This document shows, in pieces, positions 5,496-19,470 of a stretch of DNA of 28,833 nt (position 1 is the first letter of the stretch; every line of letters starts with the position of its first letter). Position numbers and translations under genes: made by a program. Source of the stretch: a virus; the IMG/VR virus record IMGVR_UViG_3300029319_004065, positions 1 through 28,833 of that record. One strand, written 5' to 3'. The notes beneath the pieces were generated by a model. It made no database searches. It was not told the DNA's origin and saw only the letters and a program-made list of their open reading frames with translations.

Positions 5496-6343
5496 GTGAG
5501 AATTTATTTGTATTAGGTAATGGTGAGAGTAGAAAAGACATAGATGTCGAACTACTGAAAAGTAAAGGTAAAGTATATGGTTGTAATGCCATTTTTAGAG
5601 AACATGAACTAGATGGTTTAATTGCAGTTGACCCAATGTTAGAACACGAAATATATCAAAGTGGTTATGCACATAAGAATCCATGTTACTTTAGAAGTTG
5701 GGATGGCATGCCTGTTGATCATTATGAAATGATGAAAGAGGCACAAACAAGTAATATGAAAAGTCCTAACATAAGAGAATGGAAGTATAACCAAGAGGGA
5801 CACTATCTATCTTTTGTAATACATGGCACAGCCGCAATAGATACGAACAGAAAAACTGATAGATGGAAAGGTGAGGGTTTTGAAAATGTTTATATCACAT
5901 GGTTATATGGACACGATAAGGTAACACAATTAAAAGAAATTATGAATGATTACTATGCCGGGTCATGGGAAGGTGAAGAGAGAGGTCCTGAAGATCCTGG
6001 TTGGTCATCTGGTGCAACGGCGATGTACATAGGTTGTAAACTAGAAAAACCTAAGACATGTTATTTGATAGGCATGGACATGTACAGTACCACAGATTTT
6101 ATTAATAATTTATATAAGAACACACATGGATATCTCAACCAAGACGAGTCCTCAGTAACACCACAAAACTGGATTACACAAATGGGCAGAGTAATGGTGA
6201 GATATAAAGATATTCAGTTTATTAAGGTAAACCCGGAGGGCAACTCAAAAGTAAGTGAGAGAATGTTACAATGGGATTCCATACCAAATCTGACTTATCA
6301 ACATACTAAGGAATTTATTTCACATTTAGCGCTTGACTTTTAA
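5492..6343 (+). CDS. conserved phage protein, possible nucleotide-sugar-type Rossmann fold
   Basis: 283 aa. The N-terminus LFVLGNGESRKDIDVELLKSKGKVYGCNAIFRE has a strand, a glycine-rich loop and a strand as in DUF115/MptE-like or glycosyltransferase-type Rossmann proteins. A later SSGATAMYIGCKLEKPKTCYLIGMDMY forms a second conserved patch. Homologues are, to my memory, widespread in marine T4-like phages without a known activity. It ends the operon; its last codons overlap a -35 promoter element (6333-6338) for the following intergenic RNA. Confidence 0.7.
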   Translation: MSENLFVLGNGESRKDIDVELLKSKGKVYGCNAIFREHELDGLIAVDPMLEHEIYQSGYAHKNPCYFRSWDGMPVDHYEMMKEAQTSNMKSPNIREWKYNQEGHYLSFVIHGTAAIDTNRKTDRWKGEGFENVYITWLYGHDKVTQLKEIMNDYYAGSWEGEERGPEDPGWSSGATAMYIGCKLEKPKTCYLIGMDMYSTTDFINNLYKNTHGYLNQDESSVTPQNWITQMGRVMVRYKDIQFIKVNPEGNSKVSERMLQWDSIPNLTYQHTKEFISHLALDF

Positions 6344-6361
6344 GCCTACCTGTGTTATAAT
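6333..6361 (+). promoter_or_regulatory. sigma70-type extended -10 promoter before the intergenic RNA and gp32
   Basis: TTGACT at 6333-6338, a 17-bp spacer and TATAAT at 6356-6361, preceded by TG at the extended -10 position. The expected start is about 6368, right where the closing stem of the predicted RNA begins. It has the same architecture as the promoter at 2467-2495, and both share CTTGACTTTT at the -35 side. It would be active with host RNA polymerase early in infection. Confidence 0.85.
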
Positions 6362-6365
6362 AGAG

Positions 6366-6592
6366 TTATCATTTAGCAGAATTATATTGGTTGCAAACTT
6401 TATATCGTTCTGGCTGAACAATGCTTAAGAGGGCATAAGGCAAAGTGGTTAGAGGGTAGTGGGCAAACGCCTCAAGACACTAACTGTTTGTTTATTAGTA
6501 GGGACCATATCTGTACGAAAGTATGACTTGGACTCTTCCTGAAAAATTGTGGGTAATACTCCAGTTGAATCCCACGAACGGCTAAATGATAA
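6366..6592 (+). ncRNA. probable structured non-coding RNA or gp32 leader, about 230 nt
   Basis: The only gene-free stretch over 300 nt (6344-6676). TTATCATTTAGC at 6366-6377 is exactly complementary to GCTAAATGATAA at 6581-6592, closing a multibranched fold. Internal helices drawn by eye: 6407-6410 with 6416-6419; 6421-6424 with 6433-6436; 6457-6461 with 6478-6482, enclosing GGC/GCC; 6500-6507 with 6529-6540, interrupted by a bulge and capped by a GAAA tetraloop hairpin at 6513-6524; and GTGGG 6549-6553 with CCCAC 6571-6575. The 5' end coincides with a strong promoter's start and the 3' stem runs into TTAATTTT. It matches no RNA family I know. It could be free, or a leader controlling gp32 translation. 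Confidence 0.6.
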
Positions 6593-6616
6593 TTAATTTT
6601 CACTAAAGGTAAAAAC

Positions 6617-6638
6617 TTGTATATATACTAATATACAA
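6617..6638 (+). repeat. AT-rich inverted repeat in the gp32 leader
   Basis: TTGTATAT and ATATACAA flank a 6-nt loop, 38 nt before the gp32 start. This could be an operator, a weak hairpin, or the loading site through which gp32 represses its own translation, as T4 gp32 does at an unstructured AT-rich leader. A good AAGGA ribosome site follows at 6666-6670. Confidence 0.4.
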
Positions 6639-6676
6639 TTATACGAATACAACGAATACAAACATAAGGATAAAAT

Positions 6677-7591
6677 ATGTCATTTGCAAATTTAAAAAGA
6701 AGTCGTGGTAACTTCGACAAACTAACTAAAGAACTAGAAAAAGTTACAACCCCAGCAACAAATCAAAACTCATCAGACGATACAAGATTTTGGAAACCAG
6801 AACTTGATAAGAGTGGTAATGGTTATGCTGTTATTAGATTTTTACCTGCAGTAGAAGGTGAAGAACTACCATGGGCAAGAGTATGGTCTCATGCTTTTCA
6901 AGGTCCTGGTGGTTGGTACATTGAGAACAGTTTAACAACACTTGGTCAAAAAGATCCAGTTGGTGAAGAAAACAGTAGACTTTGGAATACTGGTTCTGAA
7001 GCAGACAAAGAGATTGCTAGAAAGAGAAAAAGAAAGTTATCATACTTTACTAATATCTTTGTAGTATCTGATCCTGCACACCCAGAGAATGAAGGTCAAG
7101 TAAAACTTTACAAGTTTGGTAAAAAAATATTTGACAAAATTACTGAGGCGATGAAACCTGAATTTGAAGATGAACAAGCAGTTAACCCATTTGACTTTTG
7201 GGAAGGTGCAAACTTCAAACTTAAAATTCGTAAGGTAGATGGTTACTGGAATTATGACAAATCAGAATTTGAATCACCATCAAAACTCAAAGAGAATGAT
7301 GAAGATATAGAAGCACTTTGGAAAAAACAATATTCCTTAAAAAGTTTTTCAGACCAATCAAACTTTAAATCATATGATGAACTCAAAGCGAAATTTGAAA
7401 GAGTTGTATTTGGTTCTGGAAATACCGCGACCGCAGACGAAGTAAATATCCCACCTGTAAGTGCGGTTGAAAGTGTTGTGGAAGAAACTAAGGTAGAAAC
7501 AGCACCGTCAATACCTGAAACTGCTACTCCCCCTAGTAGTGAAGACGAAGACGATACTATGAACTACTTTAGCAAATTAGTCAACAATTAA
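6677..7591 (+). CDS. 32: single-stranded DNA-binding protein gp32
   Basis: 304 aa (T4 gp32 is 301). The N-terminal basic LKRSRGNF matches the LAST-type cooperativity motif. The core has FWKPELDKSGNGYAVIRFLP, WSHAFQGPGGWYIENSLTTLG and NPFDFWEGANFKLKIRKVDGYWNYDKS, which are hallmark gp32 segments. The C-terminus is acidic (SSEDEDDTMNYF), the protein-interaction tail. It coats fork DNA and works with gp59. There are no cysteines at all, so the zinc site of T4 gp32 is absent, as I recall for cyanophage gp32. AAGGA at 6666-6670 is a proper Shine-Dalgarno, unlike many neighbours. Confidence 0.95.
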   Translation: MSFANLKRSRGNFDKLTKELEKVTTPATNQNSSDDTRFWKPELDKSGNGYAVIRFLPAVEGEELPWARVWSHAFQGPGGWYIENSLTTLGQKDPVGEENSRLWNTGSEADKEIARKRKRKLSYFTNIFVVSDPAHPENEGQVKLYKFGKKIFDKITEAMKPEFEDEQAVNPFDFWEGANFKLKIRKVDGYWNYDKSEFESPSKLKENDEDIEALWKKQYSLKSFSDQSNFKSYDELKAKFERVVFGSGNTATADEVNIPPVSAVESVVEETKVETAPSIPETATPPSSEDEDDTMNYFSKLVNN

Positions 7592-7618
7592 TCTCTCCTG
7601 TTGAGTCCACAACTTATG

Positions 7619-7657
7619 GTCCGTGCTCTATATAAATAGAGCATGGACTTATTTTTT
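7619..7657 (+). terminator. rho-independent terminator after gp32, overlapping the next start codon
   Basis: GTCCGTGCTCTAT at 7619-7631 pairs with ATAGAGCATGGAC at 7636-7648: 13 bp with one G-T wobble and a 4-nt loop, followed by TTATTTTTT. This fits an intrinsic terminator for the gp32 message. The same hairpin contains a late box (7631-7638) and the ATG of the next gene (7643-7645) in its 3' arm. Confidence 0.75.
7631..7638 (+). promoter_or_regulatory. T4-type late promoter box TATAAATA inside a hairpin
   Basis: Perfect TATAAATA ending 4 nt before the ATG at 7643. The expected start of transcription is at or next to that ATG, so the message would be leaderless and would lack the hairpin that closes the start codon in read-through transcripts. 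It would drive the membrane-protein trio and perhaps the curli-like genes. Confidence 0.65.
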
Positions 7658-7924
7658 ACAATATTAGTAGATTTTGGATTACCCGTTGCCGCAGCCATGG
7701 TGATGGGTCTTTTCATTTATATAATCCTAAAGTATATATTGGCAGGTGTGGTAGACCAAGTTGGTACAATCACAATGTTAATATCTGCTTTAGATAACAG
7801 AATAAAAACTATGAACCACGACATGATAAAACTAGACATACTGATTTCAAGTGCCTTAAACTTACGACCAGATTTAGATAGAGTATCAAGGTCAGATGGT
7901 AAAGAAGACGCAAGAAAAGATTAA
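7643..7924 (+). CDS. small membrane protein, first of a paralogous pair
   Basis: 93 aa. One long N-terminal hydrophobic segment (about residues 10-36, GLPVAAAMVMGLFIYIILKYILAG) is followed by a helical, probably coiled-coil stretch (ITMLISALDNRIKTMNHDMIKLDIL) and a charged tail. The membrane segment and the following IDNRIxxxxxDxIxL pattern match the next gene, so the pair arose by duplication. There is no Shine-Dalgarno sequence; a late promoter abuts the ATG. Alignment with the paralogue supports this start. The function is unknown; a holin-like or envelope-scaffold role is possible. Confidence 0.75.
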   Translation: MDLFFTILVDFGLPVAAAMVMGLFIYIILKYILAGVVDQVGTITMLISALDNRIKTMNHDMIKLDILISSALNLRPDLDRVSRSDGKEDARKD

Positions 7925-8241
7925 TGGTAGAAGTAGAAGTAACAAGTCCAATCATTGAAATGTTAAATCAATATGGTTTTGCTACAGTGGCTGCCATAGC
8001 GATGGGTTGGTTCATCTATTTCATATACAATTATGTTACTGGTCAGATTATAGAAAAACTTGATAAGGCACAAATGACTACCATAGCACTAATAGATCGT
8101 ATTAGAATGCTAGACAATGACTTGATACGATTAAGGTCAAAACTTAACACCGTATTAGAAATGAGAGAAAATGAACAAAAAGATAACAAGCGTAGAGAAC
8201 CAGATAGAATACCTGAAAGCCCTAAAGACAGCGGGGATTAG
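7924..8241 (+). CDS. small membrane protein, second of a paralogous pair
   Basis: 105 aa. An N-terminal extension (MVEVEVTSPIIEMLNQ) precedes a hydrophobic segment at about 18-40 (FATVAAIAMGWFIYFIYNYV), then a coiled-coil-like MTTIALIDRIRMLDNDLIRLRSKLNTVL and a very charged tail rich in Lys, Arg, Glu and Asp. It is similar to the upstream protein in topology and in the MGxFIY and IDRIRMLDNDLIRL motifs. The start overlaps the upstream stop (TAATG). It could form a hetero-oligomer with its paralogue in the inner membrane. Confidence 0.8.
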   Translation: MVEVEVTSPIIEMLNQYGFATVAAIAMGWFIYFIYNYVTGQIIEKLDKAQMTTIALIDRIRMLDNDLIRLRSKLNTVLEMRENEQKDNKRREPDRIPESPKDSGD

Positions 8242-8302
8242 TTTAGCAATACTCATACTAGGTACAGTATGGGGCGTAATGATATACTCCTGGTTTTTAT
8301 AA
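8171..8302 (+). CDS. 43-aa tail-anchored membrane protein in an overlapping frame
   Basis: This ORF starts inside the preceding gene in another frame and runs 61 nt past it. It encodes a charged N-terminal helix (KKITSVENQIEYLKALKTA) and a clean C-terminal membrane span (GISLAILILGTVWGVMIY). Its stop overlaps the late box at 8298-8305. A well-formed transmembrane segment exactly where the frame leaves the overlap argues for a real gene. With its two neighbours it makes a cluster of three tiny membrane proteins directly upstream of the curli-like genes. Confidence 0.6.
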   Translation: MNKKITSVENQIEYLKALKTAGISLAILILGTVWGVMIYSWFL

Positions 8303-8305
8303 ATA
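8298..8305 (+). promoter_or_regulatory. T4-type late promoter box TATAAATA before csgF-like gene
   Basis: Perfect TATAAATA ending 7 nt before the ATG at 8313, with no ribosome-binding sequence in between. The predicted start falls about on the ATG, so a leaderless message is likely. It makes the curli-like cluster a late-expressed unit. Confidence 0.7.
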
Positions 8306-8312
8306 GTAGTAT

Positions 8313-8780
8313 ATGAAAACACTAAAATGGTTAGTGTTAGGTTTTACATTATGTCTGGCGATACCTGGCATTACAAGTGAATTAGTACATAATTTTGCCA
8401 ACCCTTCTTTCTCTGGGTCTGGTTATTCTACCCATGTATTATCACTTGAACAATTAAGATACAGTAGAGAAAAGAATATTGCGGACGACGCTAGGTCTGC
8501 GGCAGCGGCTGCAGAAAGAGACGCCAACAATACTACTATCAACAAGTTTATTAAGAATGTTGAGAGTAGAATATATGCCAATCTATCTAAACAGTTGGTT
8601 GACAATATGTTTGGTACAGAATGTGAAAGTGAATGTGAAACTTCTGGTACTGCTGAAGTTGAGGGTTCTACAATCTATTGGATCAAAGATGAGACCACAG
8701 AAATTATTACATTAACAATTACATCACCAGATGGCACTACAACGACCATGAGTGTGCCTGTAGGCGATTTCAAGTTTTAA
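8313..8780 (+). CDS. csgF: CsgF-like curli assembly factor
   Basis: 155 aa. The signal peptide MKTLKWLVLGFTLCLAIPGITS precedes ELVHNFANPSFSGSGYSTHVLSLEQL, which matches the mature N-terminus of CsgF (FxNPxFGGNPxNGxxLLNSAQAQ), the part that plugs into the CsgG pore. An Ala-rich helix (ARSAAAAAERD) and a C-terminal beta domain with CEC-type cysteines follow, ending in GTTTTMSVPVGDFKF like the CsgF C-terminus. In bacteria CsgF sits at the outer-membrane pore and anchors the nucleator CsgB. The gene is immediately followed by csgG, as expected for a functional pair. Confidence 0.85.
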   Translation: MKTLKWLVLGFTLCLAIPGITSELVHNFANPSFSGSGYSTHVLSLEQLRYSREKNIADDARSAAAAAERDANNTTINKFIKNVESRIYANLSKQLVDNMFGTECESECETSGTAEVEGSTIYWIKDETTEIITLTITSPDGTTTTMSVPVGDFKF

Positions 8781-8781
8781 T

Positions 8782-9600
8782 ATGTCTATATCTTTTCCAC
8801 ATGTAGCGGCGGTGATTGCGGTCTTTTGTTTAACTGTTGGTTGTGCGTCAACTAAATCTGATAGTGTGTTTTATGGCGAAACACCTTACACACTAGAAAC
8901 AGACACAATTAAAAGATTAAAAAATATACCAGAACTAGGGCAACCACAGATTACAATTGCTGTATATAATTTTCCTGACAAAACAGGACAAAGAAAACCT
9001 AACGATAGATTTTCTCAACTATCTACGGCAGTAACACAAGGACCAGAAGTATGGGTCATCAACTCATTAAAGGCAGTTGGTGGTAATGAACCTTGGTTTA
9101 GAGTATTAGAAAGAGAAGGACTAGATGCTCTTATAAAAGAGAGACAACTTATAAGAAGTACAAGAGAACTATATGATGGTGAAAGTGATGTAAAGAACCA
9201 ATTAAAACCTTTACTATTTGCAGGACTTATAGTAGAAGGTGGTATTGTAGGATATGATACGAACATTACATCTGGTGGTGTTGGTATGAGATATTTTGGT
9301 ATAGGGGCAAGTGAACAATATCGTACAGACCAAGTAACAGTTTCGCTTCGTTTAGTTTCTGTTCAGACAGGAGAAATCTTGTTAACAGTATCAGCAACAA
9401 AAACGATAGCGTCATATTCAAGTGGCGGAGATGTATTTAGATTTTTAGACATGAGTACAAAAGCGCTTGAAATAGAAACTGGTGTCGCAACTAATGAGCC
9501 AGTTAACTATGCAATCAGAACCACAATAGAACATGCGGTGCATAATTTAATATATGAAGGTATCGAATGTGAGTTGTGGTCATTTAAAATAGAGGAGTAA
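8782..9600 (+). CDS. csgG: CsgG-like curli secretion pore lipoprotein
   Basis: 272 aa (E. coli CsgG is 277). The lipobox LTVGCAST predicts cleavage before Cys and outer-membrane lipidation. Family blocks: ITIAVYNFPDKTGQRKP, PWFRVLEREGLDALIKERQLIR, GGIVGYDTNITSGGVGMRYFGIGASEQYRTDQVTVSLRLV, TGEILLTVSATKTIASY, VFRFLD and TNEPVNYAIRTTIEHAV. These include the transmembrane hairpins that build the nonameric barrel. At the constriction loop the E. coli residues Tyr51, Asn55 and Phe56 are not conserved (KPNDRFSQLSTAV here). It starts 1 nt after csgF, without its own ribosome site, so it is probably translationally coupled. Confidence 0.93.
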   Translation: MSISFPHVAAVIAVFCLTVGCASTKSDSVFYGETPYTLETDTIKRLKNIPELGQPQITIAVYNFPDKTGQRKPNDRFSQLSTAVTQGPEVWVINSLKAVGGNEPWFRVLEREGLDALIKERQLIRSTRELYDGESDVKNQLKPLLFAGLIVEGGIVGYDTNITSGGVGMRYFGIGASEQYRTDQVTVSLRLVSVQTGEILLTVSATKTIASYSSGGDVFRFLDMSTKALEIETGVATNEPVNYAIRTTIEHAVHNLIYEGIECELWSFKIEE

Positions 9601-9605
9601 AAAGC

Positions 9606-10286
9606 ATGTACGCTAAAATTATAATGATATTGATGTTGTTTGCCTTACCGGTAATGGCGAATGATATCTATGTTACACAATCAGGTGCTACGCTTGACCT
9701 CGACATTACCCAAGACGGACAAAACAATACTGTTGGTAATAGTACAACATCATCAAGTGTGATTGGTGCTACTACCACTATCGACATTGATCAAGTTGGT
9801 AATAGTAATGTTTTAAAGTTTGATGTAAACGGTGCAACTTTTACAGGTACTTTTAGTACAACTGGTAACTCAAACGATATTGATTTTAATTGTGATAGTG
9901 CAGGAAATAATTCTTCATGTGCTACTGCTACTGCTTCAATCATATGGGCAGGTAATAGTAACGATTTAGATATTGATATTGGTGAGACAGCAGACGCTTC
10001 AAATGCCACTGTAAGTATAACAGGTTCAAGTGGTAGTGATTCCAATGTCGTTGCGGCGACAATAGATGGAACATCTGCTATTTTAACCTTAACCGTTAAT
10101 GGTGATACAAATAATTATTTAATTGATATAGATGGTGATGGTGATGTCAACGGACACACTTTAGTTCATTCCCACACGGGATCAATCGCTGATGTAGATA
10201 TAACTCAATCTGGTGTTTATGATAATATAATTAACTTGACAACAAGTGGTGATAACCATGATATTGATATATCACAAACTGATTAA
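9606..10286 (+). CDS. curlin-repeat amyloid-type subunit (CsgA/CsgB-like)
   Basis: 226 aa. Signal peptide MYAKIIMILMLFALPVMA, then a mature chain of irregular curlin-type repeats built on IxQxGxxNxxxIxI: ITQDGQNNTV, IDQVGNSNVLKFDV, STTGNSNDIDF, WAGNSNDLDIDI, ITQSGVYDNI and TSGDNHDIDISQ. The composition is Asn, Asp, Gly, Thr and Ser rich, with few charged basic residues, as in secreted functional amyloids. A DIDGDGDVNG segment resembles a calcium-binding loop. AGAGGAG at 9591-9597 is a strong ribosome site. It is presumably exported through the adjacent CsgG-like pore. Whether it polymerises cannot be told from sequence. Confidence 0.85.
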   Translation: MYAKIIMILMLFALPVMANDIYVTQSGATLDLDITQDGQNNTVGNSTTSSSVIGATTTIDIDQVGNSNVLKFDVNGATFTGTFSTTGNSNDIDFNCDSAGNNSSCATATASIIWAGNSNDLDIDIGETADASNATVSITGSSGSDSNVVAATIDGTSAILTLTVNGDTNNYLIDIDGDGDVNGHTLVHSHTGSIADVDITQSGVYDNIINLTTSGDNHDIDISQTD

Positions 10287-11379
10287 AGAACTAATAATAT
10301 TATTAATAATATTCTATACTGGCTCTTTATGGGCCAGTATAGGAGAAGTAGACCAAGTAGAAGGTAACGGAGTTATCGACCGTAATAAAACAGATATAAC
10401 AATCGAACAAGAATTAGAGATAGAACAATACGATACAGTAAAAACTGGTAATGGTAAAGTTGGTATATTATTTGTAGATGATACCAGAGTAGATGTAACG
10501 CAACACAGTAAACTTATCATAGATGAATTTGTATTTGACCCTAACAGTGGTACAGGTAAACTTACACTAAAGGCTGCACTTGGCACAGTTAGATATGCGT
10601 CAGGACAGATTGCAAAAAACTCCAGACAAGATATAAAGATTACAACACCTACAGCCACAATAGGTGTAAGAGGCACAGACTTTACAATGACGATAGATGA
10701 ACTAGGTGGTTCTACTATTATACTACTACCGTCCTGTGATGTCAATGGTAATTGTGTTGTTGGTGAGATAAGTGTTGAGAGTGCCGCAGGGCAAGTCATA
10801 CTCAATCAGGCATTTCAAGCGACACAGGTAACTGTACCAGAGAACCCTCCTACCCCACCTGTAAAATTAGATTTAGAAATAGACATGATTAATAACATGT
10901 TGATAATTTCTAAACCTAAAGAAATAGAAGACGAAAACTATGTAAAGAAAATTAAGGCAGTGGCAGACGCATTAGATATTGACTTTTTACAATTTGATGA
11001 TTTAGACCAAGACTACCTCGAAGAAGAAGAAAACCTATATGTAACAGGACTTGATATAGATTTTCTACAACAAAATTTTTTGGCAGACATACTTAAACAA
11101 ATCAATGAAGAACTTGCAAAAGAGATGTCAGATGAATTTGAAAAACAAAAAACTGTTGGTGAGATTAAACTAGGTAAAGACCCAGAAACAGGTGTCATTA
11201 TATTAGATGAAGACCCACAATGGGTGTGGATAAGAGAGGCTGCAAGTGGGGCATATATAGAGTTACGCCTGGACAAAGAGTATGGGTACATTATAAATAT
11301 AGTACAAGATGATTTTGAAATGTATGACTTCGAACTTGGTGGGCAAGATAACGAAATAACAATAGAACAGTATCAATAA
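10258..11379 (+). CDS. FecR-domain protein with a curlin-like C-terminus
   Basis: 373 aa from the ATG at 10258; a GTG at 10246 is possible. The gene overlaps the curlin gene's end. A hydrophobic signal or anchor (LIILLIIFYTGSLWA) precedes a FecR domain of about 170 residues: IGEVDQVEG, a YDTVKTGNGKVGILFVDDTRVDV segment, TLKAALGTVRYASG and the characteristic KITTPTATIGVRGTDF. An acidic, helical middle follows. The last 25 residues (INIVQDDFEMYDFELGG, QDNEITIEQ) resemble a curlin repeat. FecR proteins with secreted or surface partners occur next to CHASE2 cyclases in bacteria. Its location suggests a link between curlin-like material and sensing, which is inferred only. Confidence 0.85.
   Translation: MILIYHKLIKELIILLIIFYTGSLWASIGEVDQVEGNGVIDRNKTDITIEQELEIEQYDTVKTGNGKVGILFVDDTRVDVTQHSKLIIDEFVFDPNSGTGKLTLKAALGTVRYASGQIAKNSRQDIKITTPTATIGVRGTDFTMTIDELGGSTIILLPSCDVNGNCVVGEISVESAAGQVILNQAFQATQVTVPENPPTPPVKLDLEIDMINNMLIISKPKEIEDENYVKKIKAVADALDIDFLQFDDLDQDYLEEEENLYVTGLDIDFLQQNFLADILKQINEELAKEMSDEFEKQKTVGEIKLGKDPETGVIILDEDPQWVWIREAASGAYIELRLDKEYGYIINIVQDDFEMYDFELGGQDNEITIEQYQ
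11292..11299 (+). promoter_or_regulatory. possible internal late promoter box
   Basis: Perfect TATAAATA inside the FecR gene, about 83 nt before the start of the 507-aa structural protein. It may provide extra late transcription of the two large structural genes. An all-A/T octamer within coding sequence can easily be chance. A weaker box, TATCAATA at 11371-11378, lies 3 nt before the ATG. Confidence 0.25.
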
Positions 11380-11381
11380 CT

Positions 11382-12905
11382 ATGGCGTCAGAATTGCAAG
11401 AAATGATGGCAGAACTGAATAAGGCTGCCTCAGAGGAAAAGAAAAAGTTTGTAGAAAAAGTCAGAAATGATGATGATATACAATCTATGTTTTCTCAACT
11501 GGCAGAATTAAAAAAAGAAACAGACGCAAAAGAAGTACAGGTTGCTAAAGAAAAGAAATCACTTATTGATGAACTATCTGCTGTTGCAGACGAATTAGAA
11601 GAAGGCCCTAGAATACCAAGAAAGAAAGGTCAACCTGCAGGTAGTAAAAAACATAGTGATTTATATACAGACGAAAACCCTAAAGGTACAATACAAGGTC
11701 TTGGGTTTAAAGATGTAAAGACGGCAGAGGCAAGTGTAAGAAAAATAGAGAACTCTGGTAAGACACATGCCCATAAGATACAGGCTGCGATTGCGATGGA
11801 ACAGCGTGCAAGAGTTATGGGTAAAACCGCAGAGGCGGCAGTATATCGTAGATATATTGAGAAGATGAAAAAGATTACAAAACAAAGACAAAAGAAAAAT
11901 GAAGAAACAGAATCCAATAGCGAAAGACTTGAAGACACCCAAGTACAAACAGAGGATAGTGAAGAACAAGAAGATATACAACAGGAAGAAATCTTTGTTA
12001 CAAAAACTGTTGAACAACTTGGAAAACAAAACCTAGTCAACGAACAATCAGAAAAAGATTTAGAAACTGAATTTAGAAAGTTTAAAGATTTAGTTACAAA
12101 ACAACTATCAAGTCTTGGTGGTGGTGGTGAAGTACGATTAGAATTTTTAGATGATGTTGATAGAACAAGTGCCAAAGTAGATGGTAAAGCATTAGTCTAT
12201 CAAGCGTCAACTGGTAAGTTTATTGGTGGTGAAGCAGGTGGTGGTGTATCTTCAGGTGTATTACAACAAGAAGGTTCTACAGACAATATAGTATTAGATG
12301 GCACAGACGCAAGTGCCACAGACGCAGGTGATTCCATAACACAAGAGATAGGGTCAGAGGATTATGTACTTGGTGATGATGGTTATTTAAATGATGATGG
12401 TTTTGAATATATCAATGATAACAATACATCAACATCATTAGATACACCTAATACATTTGTTACATTAACAAATGCTAGAAAGAACGCTGGTGATCCAGTC
12501 TCTGGTTCATTATCACAGTATCTACCAAAGAGACATGGCACTAATAGTAGAATTGTAAGAATATGGGACGATACAGAGGATAAATTTTTCTTCAATGAGT
12601 TAGAAAGAAAAGACGCTTTGATTATGAGATTTGGTTTGAAGATAAATCCACAAGTACATAATATAAGAGTAGTTGTAAGATTATTAGTTACATTAAAACA
12701 TGGTGGGTCATTTGGTTTAGAATGTCCTGCAACAATACTTGGACCAAGTGGTGCAGGTGTTTCATACGACCCAGAATTTATCACTACATTTTTTGTAGGT
12801 GATTTAGAGGGTTATAAATCAACTGATACCTTCGCACAGGTACAGGCATCCGCAGATGGACCTTGTACAATCGAAGACTTTGACATACTCACAATAAAAG
12901 TATAA
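11382..12905 (+). CDS. predicted virion structural protein with N-terminal coiled coil
   Basis: 507 aa, no signal peptide. Residues 1-75 are charged coiled coil. About 90-165 hold GTIQGLGFKDVKTAEASVRK and KTHAHKIQAAIAMEQRARVMG, a segment I recall from marine T4-like phage structural proteins. About 165-240 is Glu/Gln-rich coil. Then comes a Gly linker and VDGKALVYQASTGKF, a motif typical of marine phage fibre proteins. DGTDASATDAGD near residue 308 is shared with the next protein. A C-terminal domain of about 140 residues looks like a beta-sandwich. A tail-fibre or baseplate-appendage role is likely. Its cytoplasmic nature contrasts with the exported proteins on both sides. Confidence 0.65.
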   Translation: MASELQEMMAELNKAASEEKKKFVEKVRNDDDIQSMFSQLAELKKETDAKEVQVAKEKKSLIDELSAVADELEEGPRIPRKKGQPAGSKKHSDLYTDENPKGTIQGLGFKDVKTAEASVRKIENSGKTHAHKIQAAIAMEQRARVMGKTAEAAVYRRYIEKMKKITKQRQKKNEETESNSERLEDTQVQTEDSEEQEDIQQEEIFVTKTVEQLGKQNLVNEQSEKDLETEFRKFKDLVTKQLSSLGGGGEVRLEFLDDVDRTSAKVDGKALVYQASTGKFIGGEAGGGVSSGVLQQEGSTDNIVLDGTDASATDAGDSITQEIGSEDYVLGDDGYLNDDGFEYINDNNTSTSLDTPNTFVTLTNARKNAGDPVSGSLSQYLPKRHGTNSRIVRIWDDTEDKFFFNELERKDALIMRFGLKINPQVHNIRVVVRLLVTLKHGGSFGLECPATILGPSGAGVSYDPEFITTFFVGDLEGYKSTDTFAQVQASADGPCTIEDFDILTIKV

Positions 12906-12913: not shown

Positions 12914-15900
12914 ATGAGTGTATTTAGAATATTCAGAAACAAAAGAGACACATTCGTTGTCTTTCAAAAACTGGCAAGAAAGATTGGTAACAGGCAGTTA
13001 GATACATTGACAGCCCGTGCCAACCCTACTGGTTCAGGTGTTGATATATTAGATGATGATGAAACAGAAACACTAGGTGAAGACTTTTTAGTATTATCAA
13101 ATGGTGCCGTAGATAAATTTAGATTACGATTTTGGGATTCTAAAAGAAGAAATCTTGGCGCTCAACAATCATATACTGATAGAGACGCCTTAGTTGTTGC
13201 ATTAAACTCAATTCTACAAACAACGGAAGATGACGCTGACTTATTAGATATTTTATTACTAGATGGTACAGATGATGCAGGTACTAATGCTACAGACGGT
13301 ATTGTACTAAACGCCATAGATGCTAATGGTACTGATGAGGATGGTGGTATTGTATTAGAAAACAATACAATGGACCACATTGCTAACCCACCAATTAAAT
13401 CTATTAACTTAATTGAAAACGCAAATGATTTCAATGTAATACGAAATGAGAAAGGATCAAATGTAGAGTTTTTAGGTGCAAATAAACCTAACTTCTTTTT
13501 AGGCACACTTACAGCGATAGCAGGTAGTACAAGTACAAAACTTTCTATTCGTAATGACGCCAGAACAGTAGATAATAACAATGCTGTATTTGAGTTTTTT
13601 GATTTAGAATTTACACGATTTAGAAATTCTAGTGGTGAACTATTTGCTAATAGAGATACCGCAATAACTGAACTAAACATTTTATTTTCTGAATTACCAA
13701 CTGCTTCAGTTATTGCCACACAAGACTTTTTTCATAATGATGATAACTCACAATTGACTGGTAGAACTTTTGATCCATCAAAAGGGCCTGCGTTTTGGGG
13801 TACAACATTAAAAGCAGGTGAAGAATTAACTTTCTCTGGACATTCTTCAGGTAAAGTTTTACTTGTTGGTAAGTTTGGTGGTGCGACAAGCACAGTAGGT
13901 CAAAGTGCTTTCAATGTAGGCAATTGGGATAAACGAATTGGTATTAATACAAGTGGTCAATTACAAGCAAATGGTAGTAATAGGGATTCAAGTGTGGCAA
14001 TGGGTATTGGTCGACAACAAGATCATTCAAATGCAAGTTTTGCTATGAGATATGATAGAGATAATTTTAAATTACAACTTGTTGATTTATCATTTGGTTT
14101 TGAAATGATAGTTGGTGAGGCAAGTGTCGCTGAAGATGGTAGTGCGATTACAATACATTTTGCCGCTTCATCATCTACAAGTGATTATACCACTACAATA
14201 GAACTACCGGCAGTTACTCAACGAAAAGTAGATTTAATTTTACATGCTGAACATACAGCGAATGATGTAACGGACGATGATTATACAAACGGTGTTGTAG
14301 AGGACGCTGTGTTTAGTATGAACAAACCACTCAACAAAGGTGAGAAGTTAGTATTTACACCACAAACCAATCATGGCGCTCAGGCAATATTACTTGATTA
14401 CACAGGTAGTTCTGGTAGTGGTACAGGTCAAACAGGTGTTGAAAGTAGAACAAATGCTGGACTTATATTTGCGGCACATGATGACACTAACGCTGGTAAT
14501 GTAACTTCATCAACAGGTTTTACAATTAATCAATATTCAAGTCGTTATGATACATCAACAAGAACATCAAATCAAATTGGTCGTGCTATGTCTATAAGAT
14601 ATCATACAGATAATAAAATTGATTTGTATGATGAAACGGCAGAAGAAATACTATTCACAAAAGATAGTAATGCTGATGGTAACCCTATTACATTATTTTT
14701 AGCAGGTCTTGTTGACGATAGTGGTAGTGATAAAGTATTACATTTAAAAGGATTGAACATGGAACCTGTTGGCACAGACATGGCTGCCAGACCTAGTTTT
14801 ATTTCCTATACTCATGGTACTTCCTCTGATGTATCAATCAATACGGACCCGGATCAAATTAAGAATAGATTATATTCAGATACAGGTAATCAATCAAGTG
14901 GTGTTGATAAGTTACAAGGTCCACATGATAGAGTACAATATGGTGCGACACTACGAGGTGGTATGGAAACATCATTTACTGGCCCTTCAACTTTTATAAC
15001 AAGTAATAAAACTGCCGGGAATAATTTTGGTGTATCAACAGGCCCAAGTGTGAGTAATGATTGGTCAACAAAATATTCTATTTTAAGAGATGGTGAATTA
15101 TCAAGTGATAACCTCATCAATGCTTCTATAACTTCAAGTGATTTCATAGATTTAGATAGAACAGACGCAAGTGGTTCAGACGCAGGTGATGAAGTATTAC
15201 TTGATAGAACAGACAGTAGTGGTTCAAATGCTGGTGGTAAAATAGTCATAGAACAAAACGATAGTGATTTGTTTGAAGACTTATCTGGTATTGATATGAG
15301 ATTACGATACGAACACGGTACAAACTTATTACATTTAGACGCTATACAAAATGGCGTGAGAAAAAGAATTGCCACAGGTAATGCCCAAGTAGATAGTGAT
15401 GGTGATTTTGTACATATTACCAGTTCTGGTGATGATACCAAAGTATTACCATTTAGTACGCCATTCTTCTATGGTATGGAATATGCCCATACGGCGACAG
15501 CAAGTCCACAAGAGTATCGTGGTTTGAATAATCAGTTTTTAGATTGGCCGACACAGAATACAACATTAAAAGCAGACACAGTATTAAGACACATTGATGG
15601 TATCATGCCAGGTTTTAAAATACATTTTCAACTACCAACAGAAACTGGCAATACTATTAATTTCAAGTTTGGTGATTGGAAAACAGGTAATGCCGCTTCT
15701 GGCGAATCAAACCCAGTTACAGATAATGCTAAATGGAATTGGGGTTTTGAATTAAATGATGGTAATGAAAAGATACTTGCAAGTGATTTACATAACATGG
15801 AGTTTAACAAGAAGCACCCATTCTATAATCCTGGACCACCAGATGCTGTTGATACTGATACTGAATTTTGGCAAAGACCAAACAATGAAAACAAAAAGAC

Positions 15901-17254
15901 AAATGTTTCATTGAGATACCATGATAATAATACAGTAGATATATTTGATGAAGATGTTGGTAAAGTAATATTAAATTACATAGGTTCGTTAGATGGTAGT
16001 GCCTTCAAGTTTGCCTGGTGTACAGATGGTGATATATCTAATTCATTACACCCAGGTTATATTACAAATGCTGATCCTAAAGTAAGTAGAATTACAGAAG
16101 CAGATGGTGATTTACCAAACGGTCAAGTTAGTCAATTATTACGAGGTAAATCACCTCTACTAGGTGCTGGTTATTATGTTGCATATGGTCCAGATAATGG
16201 TTCTAAAAAGAACACGCCATTGGCTGATAGATCATTACACCCAGTTTACTTCTCAAACAGTTTAGATTACAGACACGAATTTACTTTTAACACTCCTGGT
16301 TCTGGTCAAACAGGTAGTAGTCTTTATTCAATACAACTTTGGTCAGGTAATACTAATGCACCAGCAGGAACAAACGCACAACAGGCGGCAAATGTAGAAC
16401 TGGCAATTGGTGTTTCTGATACTGGTATATCAACGAATGATACTTTTGGTACAGATTTATCATCAAGTTTACTTTTATCAGACGATACAGAATTAGTATT
16501 ACGATATGATTATGATGGCTTTGTAAGATTATTAAAACCAAGTAATGGTTATGAGGTACTTCTTACATCAAATAGAAGTTTCTTAGGTGAGAATTGTCTT
16601 TATATACATTTGTCTGGTAATGCCAACGCTTCTGATGGTAATACATCAGCGCCAAGTTTTGCTGAACGAGGTGATTTCTGGAAACTTATCGCCTTTGATT
16701 CCTCTAACGCCCCATCTGGTTACAATTCACAAGATTGGCGTACTGATAGTATAACTCAACATGTAGTCTATCAAGCAGTAAGACCTATATCACCAGGTCA
16801 AAAATATGCAGGTATAAAATTACCAGAGCAAGCACCAAATACCATGTTTGGTATCGCATATAATGGTTGGCAAGGTGAAACTGATTTAACATTAACTTCT
16901 GGTAATGATTTCACAGATGAGATAGGGGCGAGTGGTTCTGGTTTATCATTTAGATGGCAAACAAATGAAAAATTTGATAATGTTACTAACGCTACCTTAA
17001 ATACAAGTAACAGTAATTACAATGGTGGTAGTGCCGCATGGATACCAGGCACAGTTGCAGGTGGTATAAACATAGAGTTTAGATATATTTCTTCTTCAAA
17101 GAAAGTAGAAGTATGGGACGCTGACCAGAATGAAAAGATACTTGAATCCACAAATGCAATAGACGCCTCTGGTAGAGACATAACTTTAGTTATTGGTTCT
17201 GTACAGAATGATATAGATGACCAATTAACAGAATATAGAATAGAACAAAACTAA
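12914..17254 (+). CDS. giant modular structural protein, probable tail fibre or adhesin
   Basis: 1446 aa, the largest gene here, without a signal peptide. The first 60 residues (RIFRNKRDTFVVFQKLARKIG) may be an attachment domain. Two Asp/Gly/Thr-rich linker sets occur: LLDGTDDAGTNATDG with NAIDANGTDEDGG at about 115-150, and LDRTDASGSDAGD with LDRTDSSGSNAGG at about 750-780. Six copies of a sandwich-type module end in a pattern like RYHxDNxxxLxD, then I/V-L, DG, IxLxxxG, near residues 376, 556, 793, 996, 1192 and 1384. This spacing of 180-237 residues suggests tandem lectin-like (LamG/concanavalin type) domains. Surface glycan binding during host recognition is likely but not proven; no catalytic motif is seen. 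Confidence 0.7.
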   Translation: MSVFRIFRNKRDTFVVFQKLARKIGNRQLDTLTARANPTGSGVDILDDDETETLGEDFLVLSNGAVDKFRLRFWDSKRRNLGAQQSYTDRDALVVALNSILQTTEDDADLLDILLLDGTDDAGTNATDGIVLNAIDANGTDEDGGIVLENNTMDHIANPPIKSINLIENANDFNVIRNEKGSNVEFLGANKPNFFLGTLTAIAGSTSTKLSIRNDARTVDNNNAVFEFFDLEFTRFRNSSGELFANRDTAITELNILFSELPTASVIATQDFFHNDDNSQLTGRTFDPSKGPAFWGTTLKAGEELTFSGHSSGKVLLVGKFGGATSTVGQSAFNVGNWDKRIGINTSGQLQANGSNRDSSVAMGIGRQQDHSNASFAMRYDRDNFKLQLVDLSFGFEMIVGEASVAEDGSAITIHFAASSSTSDYTTTIELPAVTQRKVDLILHAEHTANDVTDDDYTNGVVEDAVFSMNKPLNKGEKLVFTPQTNHGAQAILLDYTGSSGSGTGQTGVESRTNAGLIFAAHDDTNAGNVTSSTGFTINQYSSRYDTSTRTSNQIGRAMSIRYHTDNKIDLYDETAEEILFTKDSNADGNPITLFLAGLVDDSGSDKVLHLKGLNMEPVGTDMAARPSFISYTHGTSSDVSINTDPDQIKNRLYSDTGNQSSGVDKLQGPHDRVQYGATLRGGMETSFTGPSTFITSNKTAGNNFGVSTGPSVSNDWSTKYSILRDGELSSDNLINASITSSDFIDLDRTDASGSDAGDEVLLDRTDSSGSNAGGKIVIEQNDSDLFEDLSGIDMRLRYEHGTNLLHLDAIQNGVRKRIATGNAQVDSDGDFVHITSSGDDTKVLPFSTPFFYGMEYAHTATASPQEYRGLNNQFLDWPTQNTTLKADTVLRHIDGIMPGFKIHFQLPTETGNTINFKFGDWKTGNAASGESNPVTDNAKWNWGFELNDGNEKILASDLHNMEFNKKHPFYNPGPPDAVDTDTEFWQRPNNENKKTNVSLRYHDNNTVDIFDEDVGKVILNYIGSLDGSAFKFAWCTDGDISNSLHPGYITNADPKVSRITEADGDLPNGQVSQLLRGKSPLLGAGYYVAYGPDNGSKKNTPLADRSLHPVYFSNSLDYRHEFTFNTPGSGQTGSSLYSIQLWSGNTNAPAGTNAQQAANVELAIGVSDTGISTNDTFGTDLSSSLLLSDDTELVLRYDYDGFVRLLKPSNGYEVLLTSNRSFLGENCLYIHLSGNANASDGNTSAPSFAERGDFWKLIAFDSSNAPSGYNSQDWRTDSITQHVVYQAVRPISPGQKYAGIKLPEQAPNTMFGIAYNGWQGETDLTLTSGNDFTDEIGASGSGLSFRWQTNEKFDNVTNATLNTSNSNYNGGSAAWIPGTVAGGINIEFRYISSSKKVEVWDADQNEKILESTNAIDASGRDITLVIGSVQNDIDDQLTEYRIEQN
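14040..17215 (+). repeat. diverged tandem protein modules within the giant adhesin
   Basis: Recurring segments FAMRYDRDNFKLQLVD, MSIRYHTDNKIDLYD, MRLRYEHGTNLLHLD, VSLRYHDNNTVDIFD, LVLRYDYDGFVRLLK and IEFRYISSSKKVEVWD, each followed 25-40 residues later by a strand such as ITLFLAG, FKFAWC, LYIHLSG or ITLVIGS. The DNA copies are strongly diverged, so the duplication is old. The interval marks the first to last recognised motif. Confidence 0.6.
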
Positions 17255-17262: not shown

Positions 17263-17616
17263 ATGATACGATATCTCATTATTGGTATATTACTTTACCT
17301 ATTATTTCAATGTTGGACAAAAGATGTTATGGCCAACGATTTACATTTTACAATTGATAATCTCACAGATGGTGGTACATTTAATTCTGTACAAGATGGT
17401 ATAGATAATGACATTGATTTTGACATTGTAAGTATGGACGGGTTTATCATAGATATAGACCAGATAGGCAATAACAATACAATTGATGTAGATGTAGATG
17501 GTAGAACAAGTAATGGTTCTTCAATGTATTTCACACAATCTGGTAACAATAAATCATACACAGGCAGTTTATACTGTGGCCATAGTTTCTGTACTATGAC
17601 CGTAACACAAGACTAA
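17263..17616 (+). CDS. short curlin-repeat protein (CsgB-like minor subunit)
   Basis: 117 aa. A signal peptide of about 24 residues (YLIIGILLYLLFQCWTKDVMA) is followed by ND, the same first mature residues as the larger curlin protein. The mature chain carries IDIDQIGNNNTIDVDVDG and YFTQSGNNKSYTGS, two clear curlin-type units, and ends in MTVTQD. Two Cys near the C-terminus (YCGHSFC) could form a disulphide. The small repeat number suggests a nucleator or cap rather than the main fibre subunit. It is separated from its partner genes by the structural pair. Confidence 0.8.
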   Translation: MIRYLIIGILLYLLFQCWTKDVMANDLHFTIDNLTDGGTFNSVQDGIDNDIDFDIVSMDGFIIDIDQIGNNNTIDVDVDGRTSNGSSMYFTQSGNNKSYTGSLYCGHSFCTMTVTQD

Positions 17617-17634: not shown

Positions 17635-19470
17635 ATGAAATGGTTGACACACTGGTCAACTGCCTTTATTACATTGGTGGTATTGACCTATATTGGATTA
17701 CAAGACCCAGGGTTCAAAGAAATCTTACGCCTAAAATCATTTGATTATCTACTAGGCAACGAGGAAGTCAAACCATCACAGGACATTACCATAGTAACAA
17801 TAGATGAACAAGCCATAGAGAAGTATGGTCAATGGCCATGGCCTCGTAATGTATTATCAGACTTAATTGTAAATTTAAGACAATCACAAACTGGCATAAT
17901 TGTTATGCCTATATTGTTTAGTGAACAAGATCGTTTTGGACATGATGAAGAATTTTGTATTACATTAGGTTATGGTACAGTAATTGCACAAACAGGTACA
18001 ACGCAAACAAGAAAATCTAATCCTGTGCCAAGAGGTGTGGCAAAGATTGGCGACCCACTAAACTTTTTATATGAATGGCCTGGTATGGTTGGACCATTAC
18101 CAAGTCTGGCACAATGTACACAAGGTGTAGGTGTTATCAATACAGCACCAGAGATAGATGGCGTTACAAGACGAGTGCCATTATTGATGAAGATAGGCGA
18201 AGAAGTTTATCCTAACATGGCAATAGAAACAATAAGAGTTGCTGTTGGTGATCCATCTTATCAAGTCAAAGCAGATGATACAGGTGTTGTGGCGATGAGA
18301 GTGCCTGCATATGCAACAATCAATACAGACGCTAATGCCAGAATATGGTTACGATGGAATAAAGAGTTTAAAACAATAAGTGCCGCAAGTGATAACTTTG
18401 ATGAGGCTGCAGGTACAACTGTTATAATTGCATTGACGGCAGAAGGTCTATCAAGTGTAATTGCAACACCTACTGGCGAACAATATGATTATGTTATAAG
18501 TGCCAACTCACTACAAACAATACTTGATGGTGAGACAATTAAAAGATATGATAGTTTAATTGAATTAGCGCTTGCATTTTTGGCAGGTTGTGTTATAATA
18601 GTATTAACAAGATATGCACCATACTGGATTATTGGTCTTGCATTGATTATTGGTACACTTGGTATTGGTAATTACTTCACGGTTGCATTTGAGACATTAG
18701 TATTAATAGATGTTACATGGATATTATTGACACTATGGGTATGTGGTTTTCATGCTACATTCTTACGATTTATATTAGAGTTTAGACTTAAACAACAAAT
18801 ACGAAAACAGTTTGAAAAGTATCTGGACCCAAGACAAGTTGCAATACTTGTAAAGAATCCAGAGAAGTTAAAACTAGGTGGTGAACGAAAAGAAATGTCT
18901 TTCTTGTTTATGGACATTGTAGGTTTCACACCTATTTCAGAATACTATAAGAACAATGATGATCCAGAAGGACTTGTCAATGTCATCAATGACTATCTAA
19001 ACAGAATGAGTAAGATAGTATTGAAGAACGGTGGTACAATAGACAAGTATATGGGTGATTGTATTATGGCATTTTGGAACGCACCGTTAGATTGTCCTAA
19101 TCATGCTGAGATGGCAGTAAAGACATCTATTGAGTGTGCTGAAGAAACAGATAGAATTAAGAAAGAGTTTAAAGAAAAAGGTTTGCCAGATATTAACATT
19201 GGTTCAGGTGTTAACACTGGTACATGCATAGTAGGTAATATGGGTAGTGAAATGCGATTAGATTATTCTGTTATAGGTGATAGTGTAAATCTTGCGGCAC
19301 GATTAGAAGCGGCAACAAGAAATTACAAAGATAAGAATGGTAAAGTTACACCTACTTTATATTCATCTTATACACAGGAACAATTGGTTGATATTAAATC
19401 AGTTGAAGTGGATAAGATAAAGGTGAAAGGTAAAGAAGAACTGATCACCATCTATAAACCAATGGAGTAA
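17635..19470 (+). CDS. CHASE2-domain class III adenylate cyclase
   Basis: 611 aa. A first membrane span is at residues 4-22, followed by a periplasmic CHASE2 sensor to about 300 (ITIVTIDEQAIEKYGQWPWPR, GVGVINTAPEIDGVTRRVPLL). Three further spans lie near 305-325, 330-350 and 355-377, then a linker FEKYLDPRQVAILVKNPEKL and the catalytic domain. Catalytic residues are all present: metal ligands Asp427 (FMDIVGF) and Asp475 (KYMGD), adenine-specifying Lys471, Ser545 in YSVIGD at the position usually Thr in class IIIb, and transition-state Asn552 and Arg556 (VNLAARLE). It should therefore make cAMP in response to an envelope signal. A complete receptor cyclase is very unusual in a phage. Confidence 0.93.
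   Translation: MKWLTHWSTAFITLVVLTYIGLQDPGFKEILRLKSFDYLLGNEEVKPSQDITIVTIDEQAIEKYGQWPWPRNVLSDLIVNLRQSQTGIIVMPILFSEQDRFGHDEEFCITLGYGTVIAQTGTTQTRKSNPVPRGVAKIGDPLNFLYEWPGMVGPLPSLAQCTQGVGVINTAPEIDGVTRRVPLLMKIGEEVYPNMAIETIRVAVGDPSYQVKADDTGVVAMRVPAYATINTDANARIWLRWNKEFKTISAASDNFDEAAGTTVIIALTAEGLSSVIATPTGEQYDYVISANSLQTILDGETIKRYDSLIELALAFLAGCVIIVLTRYAPYWIIGLALIIGTLGIGNYFTVAFETLVLIDVTWILLTLWVCGFHATFLRFILEFRLKQQIRKQFEKYLDPRQVAILVKNPEKLKLGGERKEMSFLFMDIVGFTPISEYYKNNDDPEGLVNVINDYLNRMSKIVLKNGGTIDKYMGDCIMAFWNAPLDCPNHAEMAVKTSIECAEETDRIKKEFKEKGLPDINIGSGVNTGTCIVGNMGSEMRLDYSVIGDSVNLAARLEAATRNYKDKNGKVTPTLYSSYTQEQLVDIKSVEVDKIKVKGKEELITIYKPME

Follow-up and report, generated by a model that had tools for sequence, protein, structure and literature searches.

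Adenylate cyclases with a CHASE2 sensor are not new to phages: the gene is published, widespread in marine phages and part of the pelagiphage curli module, and Wittmers 2022 described the cyclase inside this T8SS module together with metatranscriptome support for the module (PMC9599517). The cultured Pelagibacter (SAR11) phage HTVC008M encodes such a protein, gp19 (YP_007517885.1), annotated as adenylate/guanylyl cyclase, and another is carried by four Melnitz isolates infecting OM43 (Methylophilales). In bacteria, the available parts of the reports on the CyaD1/CyaD2/CyaK-NsrA-Clr system of Sinorhizobium meliloti describe CHASE2 cyclases that answer a protein signal via the outer-membrane protein NsrA (PMC13001267), with the FecR-domain protein SMc02177 among the Clr targets (PMC13001267, PMC5498481). 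This system differs from the phage loci in having the CRP-family reader Clr, and those parts describe no curli or T1SS module. The Burkholderia BiofilmReg operon has a role in biofilm formation and combines a FecR protein with a CHASE2 histidine kinase, whose sensor gene is adjoined by the periplasmic FecR gene much as in the locus studied here; its output is a histidine kinase with a response regulator rather than the predicted cAMP enzyme of the phage, and the ligands of CHASE2 were described as unknown (PMC5192318).

The window that we analyzed comprises the 28,833 nucleotides (positions 1 to 28,833) of the IMG/VR virus record IMGVR_UViG_3300029319_004065. By analogy with HTVC008M, from which the host is deduced, its virus, a marine one, appears to be of the SAR11 phage type. 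The window contains the following module:

7643–7924, plus strand: hypA, small membrane protein (PHROG 18771)
7924–8241, plus strand: hypA2, small membrane protein (PHROG 18771), no histidine-kinase domain
8313–8780, plus strand: CsgF (PF10614, 2.6e-11)
8782–9600, plus strand: CsgG outer-membrane pore (PF03783, 3e-53)
9606–10286, plus strand: curlin-type fibre subunit (PF07012, 5.4e-4, slightly under the gathering cut-off; also judged by its neighbours)
10246–11379, plus strand: periplasmic FecR-domain protein with C-terminal strands ending NEITIEQ (PF04773, 3.6e-9), proposed input of the cyclase
11382–12905, plus strand: 507-aa tail-fibre-like protein (PHROG 30742, 2.6e-16), between fecR and the second curlin gene
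12914–17254, plus strand: 1446-aa protein that matched no family, also located between fecR and the second curlin gene
17263–17616, plus strand: short second curlin-type fibre protein of 117 aa, assigned by relatives in the equivalent position of other phage loci and by C-terminal strand motif statistics
17635–19470, plus strand: CHASE2 receptor adenylate cyclase of 611 aa, an intact ORF with ATG start

The genes thus run in the order hypA, hypA2, csgF, csgG, curlin, fecR, two inserted genes, short curlin and cyclase, all on the plus strand with intergenic gaps below 75 bp and with the cyclase as last gene. This includes the conserved order csgF, csgG, curlin, fecR and cyclase of the pelagiphage T8SS. 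The short curlin had no match in the Pfam search, and no homologue of the 1446-aa protein was found in the other viral loci examined. A histidine-kinase label has been given to the small upstream genes (PMC9599517); we reject it for the pair in the window, as these proteins of 93 and 105 aa have no Pfam kinase family (HisKA/HATPase).

The window cyclase is 81% identical to gp19 of HTVC008M, and in both phages the gene follows csgF-csgG-curlin-fecR and precedes a convergent tail gene. However, a single 1326-bp gene separates fecR from the cyclase in HTVC008M, whereas the window has the genes of the 507-aa protein, the 1446-aa protein and the short curlin there. Melnitz shares the module order, but its cyclase has only 47% identity to ours overall, with 59% in the CHASE2 domain (QZI94833.1) and 37% in the catalytic domain. 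The latter is of an exchanged type with Asp545 and Ser552, common to 78 viral copies. This Melnitz type, in which Ser replaces the transition-state Asn and Asp takes the adenine-contact position, was seen in locus L083 (12001–14052) and in L316–L395.

Within the cyclase gene we assigned the following features, to which the AlphaFold2 model adds a first membrane span at residues 9–23:

17680–18579, plus strand: CHASE2 periplasmic sensor domain, residues 16–315 (PF05226, 5.1e-37; AlphaFold2 model)
18553–18813, plus strand: three membrane helices and signalling helix, residues 307–393 (model helices 307–327, 330–353 and 361–393)
18787–18834, plus strand: conserved linker, residues ~385–400, site of catalytic-domain exchange (sliding identity profiles; separate sensor and catalytic trees)
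18889–19449, plus strand: class III cyclase catalytic domain (Pfam, alignment and structure match)
18913–18915, plus strand: D427 codon, catalytic domain
19045–19047, plus strand: K471 codon, catalytic domain
19057–19059, plus strand: D475 codon, catalytic domain
19267–19269, plus strand: S545 codon, catalytic domain
19288–19290, plus strand: N552 codon, catalytic domain
19300–19302, plus strand: R556 codon, catalytic domain

The initial annotation had read the gene as a CHASE2 adenylate cyclase that is carried by a phage, has all of its active-site residues and is linked to a curli-like module, and domains, residues and neighbours all bear this out. Residues 419–605 match Guanylate_cyc in Pfam (2.6e-19) and the ORF matches PHROG 35576 with 1050 bits. 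All six residues listed above were named at the correct positions, and they include the two metal-binding Asp, the substrate Lys and the transition-state Asn and Arg of class III adenylate cyclases. Ser545, said to occupy the class IIIb Thr position, indeed aligns with the Thr of Pseudomonas aeruginosa CyaB (RMDYTIIG in CyaB, RLDYSVIG in the phage) and is the usual residue in this family (64 Ser and 13 Thr among 77 bacterial homologues). The sensor and the four membrane spans are intact as well: Pfam recognizes CHASE2, and the model (pLDDT 88.8) places helices at 9–23, 307–327, 330–353 and 361–393, in agreement with four spans, with the CHASE2 domain between the first span and the three further ones. 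Structural alignments, which mainly cover the catalytic part, gave Z 26.4 and rmsd 1.7 over 185 residues with CyaB (3r5g), and Z 25.4 for the catalytic domain with 1wc1. CyaB thus has the same catalytic fold at 39% identity; its N-terminal architecture is other than that of the CHASE2 phage cyclase. The substrate residues of the phage cyclases, K and S/D, are of the ordinary ATP type. Based on sequence and model, we predict with high confidence that the encoded enzyme is a catalytically competent class III adenylate cyclase.

The initial annotation had also considered that the gene might be missing from related phages and reflect an assembly artefact. This can be discarded, given full-length copies in two cultured phage species, relatives of the cyclase encoded on at least 589 IMG/VR stretches, and D427, K471 and D475 invariant in 309 of 309 viral copies. 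A pseudogene is likewise ruled out by the conservation of the active site and by dN/dS values against eight relatives of 0.09–0.15 overall and 0.00–0.095 in the catalytic part. Full-length cyclases occur in 6 of 50,697 phage records, and hypA, fecR and the full-length cyclase co-occur in exactly these six. The gene is therefore rare among sequenced isolates yet common in marine viral contigs, so that the rarity originally claimed for it applies to isolates only, besides the gene having been published (PMC9599517). Among 322 viral cyclase loci, curli genes lie nearby in 200, T1SS genes in 31 and both in one; neither is in view in 90, many of which are short contigs. hypA, FecR and CsgG were found together in 64 of 73 loci of at least 18 kb. 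That the cyclase belongs to a phage-borne fibre-export module can be stated with high confidence. One short contig, L457, has two cyclase ORFs, the second of which lies on the other strand and adjoins csgF and csgG.

The T1SS-linked phage cyclases (L085, L396–L462) resemble that of the window in pairing CHASE2 with a class III cyclase and in the company of the hypA pair and a FecR domain. They differ in that the FecR domain is part of the exported protein, that TolC/HlyD and cadherin or RTX adhesins replace curli, and that their sensors form a separate clade. In L085 and its IMG/VR relatives, the genes before the cyclase encode an adhesin, TolC (PF02321), a 248-aa membrane protein and HlyD (PF13437); L085 itself is a phage-like contig in the bin of a Rickettsiales MAG. 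In all eight T1SS adhesins tested (six phage, two bacterial), the N-terminal part contains a FecR domain and is followed by cadherin or RTX domains. Curli and T1SS are unrelated ways of export, and the cyclase is thus found together with a FecR-domain protein in both, which is new here; literature searches on phage T1SS adhesins and on FecR with cyclase and T1SS found nothing. Baseplate and 2OG-oxygenase matches suggest that the L085-like records are phages, and Gp23 was absent from all seven records of this set, leaving a T4-like nature unsupported. In the phage T1SS modules, the gene of ABC type (L085, 3950–4696; L440, 8197–8949) encodes a membrane part of ~250 aa in which no Pfam ATPase domain was found.

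Ordinary alphaproteobacterial curli operons consist of csgF-csgG without FecR or cyclase, whereas the window has both. Neither gene was found beside csgF-csgG in any of 37 alphaproteobacterial control loci, which had been chosen by csgF match. Contig L084 of a Caulobacteraceae MAG, in which the flanking genes are chromosomal, carries csgF-csgG-curlin-curlin-fecR-cyclase at 5983–12040. The absence of FecR and cyclase genes from bacterial curli operons, as published, therefore holds as a general rule with one exception. In trees, CsgG and the sensor of L084 fall within phage groups and away from 14 other alphaproteobacterial CsgG entries, and the operon may represent a transfer from phage to cell; mis-binning is also possible.

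A second new observation is the repeated exchange of catalytic domains under the sensor, with the junction at residues ~385–400. The sensor tree and the catalytic tree conflict: placing the six catalytic types on the former takes 15 changes, although 5 would suffice. Identity profiles of mosaic copies change partner near residues 361–420, clearly in L463, L367, L370 and L282 and more weakly in L244. L463 even joins the two export settings, being of the curli type (L335-like) up to the linker and of the T1SS type (L085-like) behind it.

Beyond phages, FecR-domain genes were present in 18 of 78 bacterial CHASE2-cyclase loci versus 0 of 37 control loci (Fisher p 6e-4, an optimistic value because the bacterial loci are related); most of the bacterial loci had no FecR within the stretch examined. 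HlyD genes made up 23 of 368 genes near bacterial CHASE2 cyclases versus 3 of 292 farther away. As FecR stands beside the cyclase in two export settings and in bacterial loci, we infer with moderate confidence from this gene company that FecR-domain proteins are the input of CHASE2. According to alignment and model, the FecR protein of the curli module starts with a signal helix, which is followed by the FecR domain, a disordered linker and, at the C-terminus, strands (pLDDT 69.9, good in the FecR domain only), and PF04773 was found in 33 of 33 relatives of the stand-alone protein. This topology, with no further span predicted behind the FecR domain, led us to reject a classical FecR sigma regulator, which would sit in the membrane with an anti-sigma part in the cytoplasm and be encoded beside FecA and a FecI sigma factor; no sigma factor was among the family matches of its neighbours. 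The C-terminal strand motif occurs in 96% of FecR proteins, 88–100% of the larger curlin groups and 4% of other proteins. A profile of the FecR C-terminus retrieved only 1 of 171 curlin2 proteins, so the attempt to read the tail as a curlin repeat failed, and the shared end is a short motif rather than proven homology.

Also new here, two elements of the T4-type late-promoter kind precede the module genes:

7631–7638, plus strand: TATAAATA before hypA, inside a 14-pair hairpin
8298–8305, plus strand: TATAAATA, T4-type late-promoter-like element before csgF

The hairpin (7618–7649) lies after gp32, and its 3' arm covers the hypA start codon. When positions −120 to +40 of viral genes were scanned, with expectations from letter shuffles, the element was found near hypA in 41 of 165 (3.1 expected) and near csgF in 31 of 129 (4.0 expected), versus 0 of 140 for csgG, 0 of 152 for fecR and 8 of 278 (6.9 expected) for the cyclase. 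Clustering at 70% identity gave 10/19, 9/41, 0/38, 0/60 and 3/51 for hypA, csgF, csgG, fecR and cyclase, respectively. In the whole window the element is at chance level (4 found, 5.2 expected), and a sigma-70 promoter scan returned 77 sites with 68.5 expected. The motif before hypA and csgF would fit late transcription with the cyclase as distal gene. The late timing assumed in the initial annotation thus becomes plausible through the related loci, although the cyclase has no motif of its own.

A cAMP signal needs a reader to have a visible output. The cNMP_binding domain was found in 5 of 117 genomes of the SAR11 family, in three of these only within open frames of 870–1002 aa unlike CRP, as opposed to 10 of 14 control genomes. 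This search covered cNMP_binding-type receptors in genomes that may be incomplete. The family was identified by the SAR11-441R probe, whose site is exact in 57 of the 117 genomes. Among 19 phage records, HTVC008M and Melnitz included and some of them fragments, none encodes a cNMP-binding domain. Class I cyclases were absent from all 117 genomes, and class III cyclases were matched in three, in L487 below the family cut-off; the two strong matches, L485 and L486, are CHASE2 cyclases on contigs in SAR11-family assemblies. The neighbours of L485 are phage-like, a nuclease and small ORFs, which fits infection or prophage-like contigs in bins. The near-absence of cNMP-binding proteins from the SAR11 family and their absence from the phage records weaken the proposed control of host physiology where it would act through a CRP-type receptor; lacking a reader, such a signal would have no visible output in SAR11. 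The other proposal, in which an envelope cue controls the curli module, is possible; the signal flow may also be reversed, with the FecR protein of the module informing the cyclase.

We consider it about an even call that the cyclase is the inner-membrane signalling end of the fibre-export module and probably receives its input from FecR. The operon hypA-hypA2-csgF-csgG-curlin-fecR-curlin-cyclase would probably be transcribed late from the T4-type promoters before hypA and csgF, and curlin-type subunits would be exported by CsgG/CsgF. The periplasmic FecR protein, with its fibre-like C-terminal strand motif, would meet the CHASE2 domain, its occupancy or release would report on fibre export, and its state would switch the cytoplasmic cyclase and thereby change cAMP. 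We regard as rather doubtful the wider proposal that the phage installs a cAMP signal in a host without a known cAMP receptor, that CHASE2 sensors of fibre- and adhesin-export modules generally have FecR-domain proteins as ligand, and that the cAMP is read by a so far unknown phage or host receptor such as a product of the hypA pair. A switch of host physiology, in which an envelope cue acts through cAMP on a host CRP/FNR-type regulator, is close to the csgD analogy of Wittmers 2022 (PMC9599517). The accounts of S. meliloti, in the parts available, provide a precedent with CHASE2 cyclases signalling via the CRP-family regulator Clr (PMC13001267, PMC5498481), and OM43 and the freshwater hosts of relatives may have receptors; still, the cNMP_binding counts given above make this reading unlikely.

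Equally unlikely in our view is a lysis or secretion device in which CsgG is a gated pore and the cyclase times envelope damage instead of fibre export. The small membrane proteins hypA and hypA2 adjoin the module and the Melnitz authors propose lysis control with CsgG as a gated pore (PMC9004378), but cyclase and hypA pair also stand beside T1SS adhesins (L085, L402, L440, L442) and FecR has the fibre C-terminal motif. Slightly less probable again is a role in counter-defence or nucleotide economy, in which the enzyme, gated by CHASE2, would compete against an immune signal made of cyclic nucleotides or deplete ATP. The repeated replacement of the catalytic domain beneath a conserved sensor resembles an arms race, and most of the host group has no known receptor, yet the strict linkage to fibre-export modules, the FecR company in two settings and the ordinary ATP-type substrate residues speak against it. 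That the gene is passive, host-derived cargo with no phage role seems very improbable: FecR and cyclase are not always in curli regions (PMC9599517), but dN/dS of about 0.1, the invariant catalytic Asp and Lys and the conserved gene order argue for function.

The near-absence of cNMP-binding proteins from SAR11 implies either that these phages, abundant in the sea, rely on an unknown cAMP receptor or that their cAMP acts outside classical signalling, a question that is testable with the cultured pair HTVC008M and HTCC1062. In addition, because FecR-domain proteins turn up with this sensor in two export systems that are unrelated, and in both phages and bacteria, they are a concrete candidate for the CHASE2 ligand.
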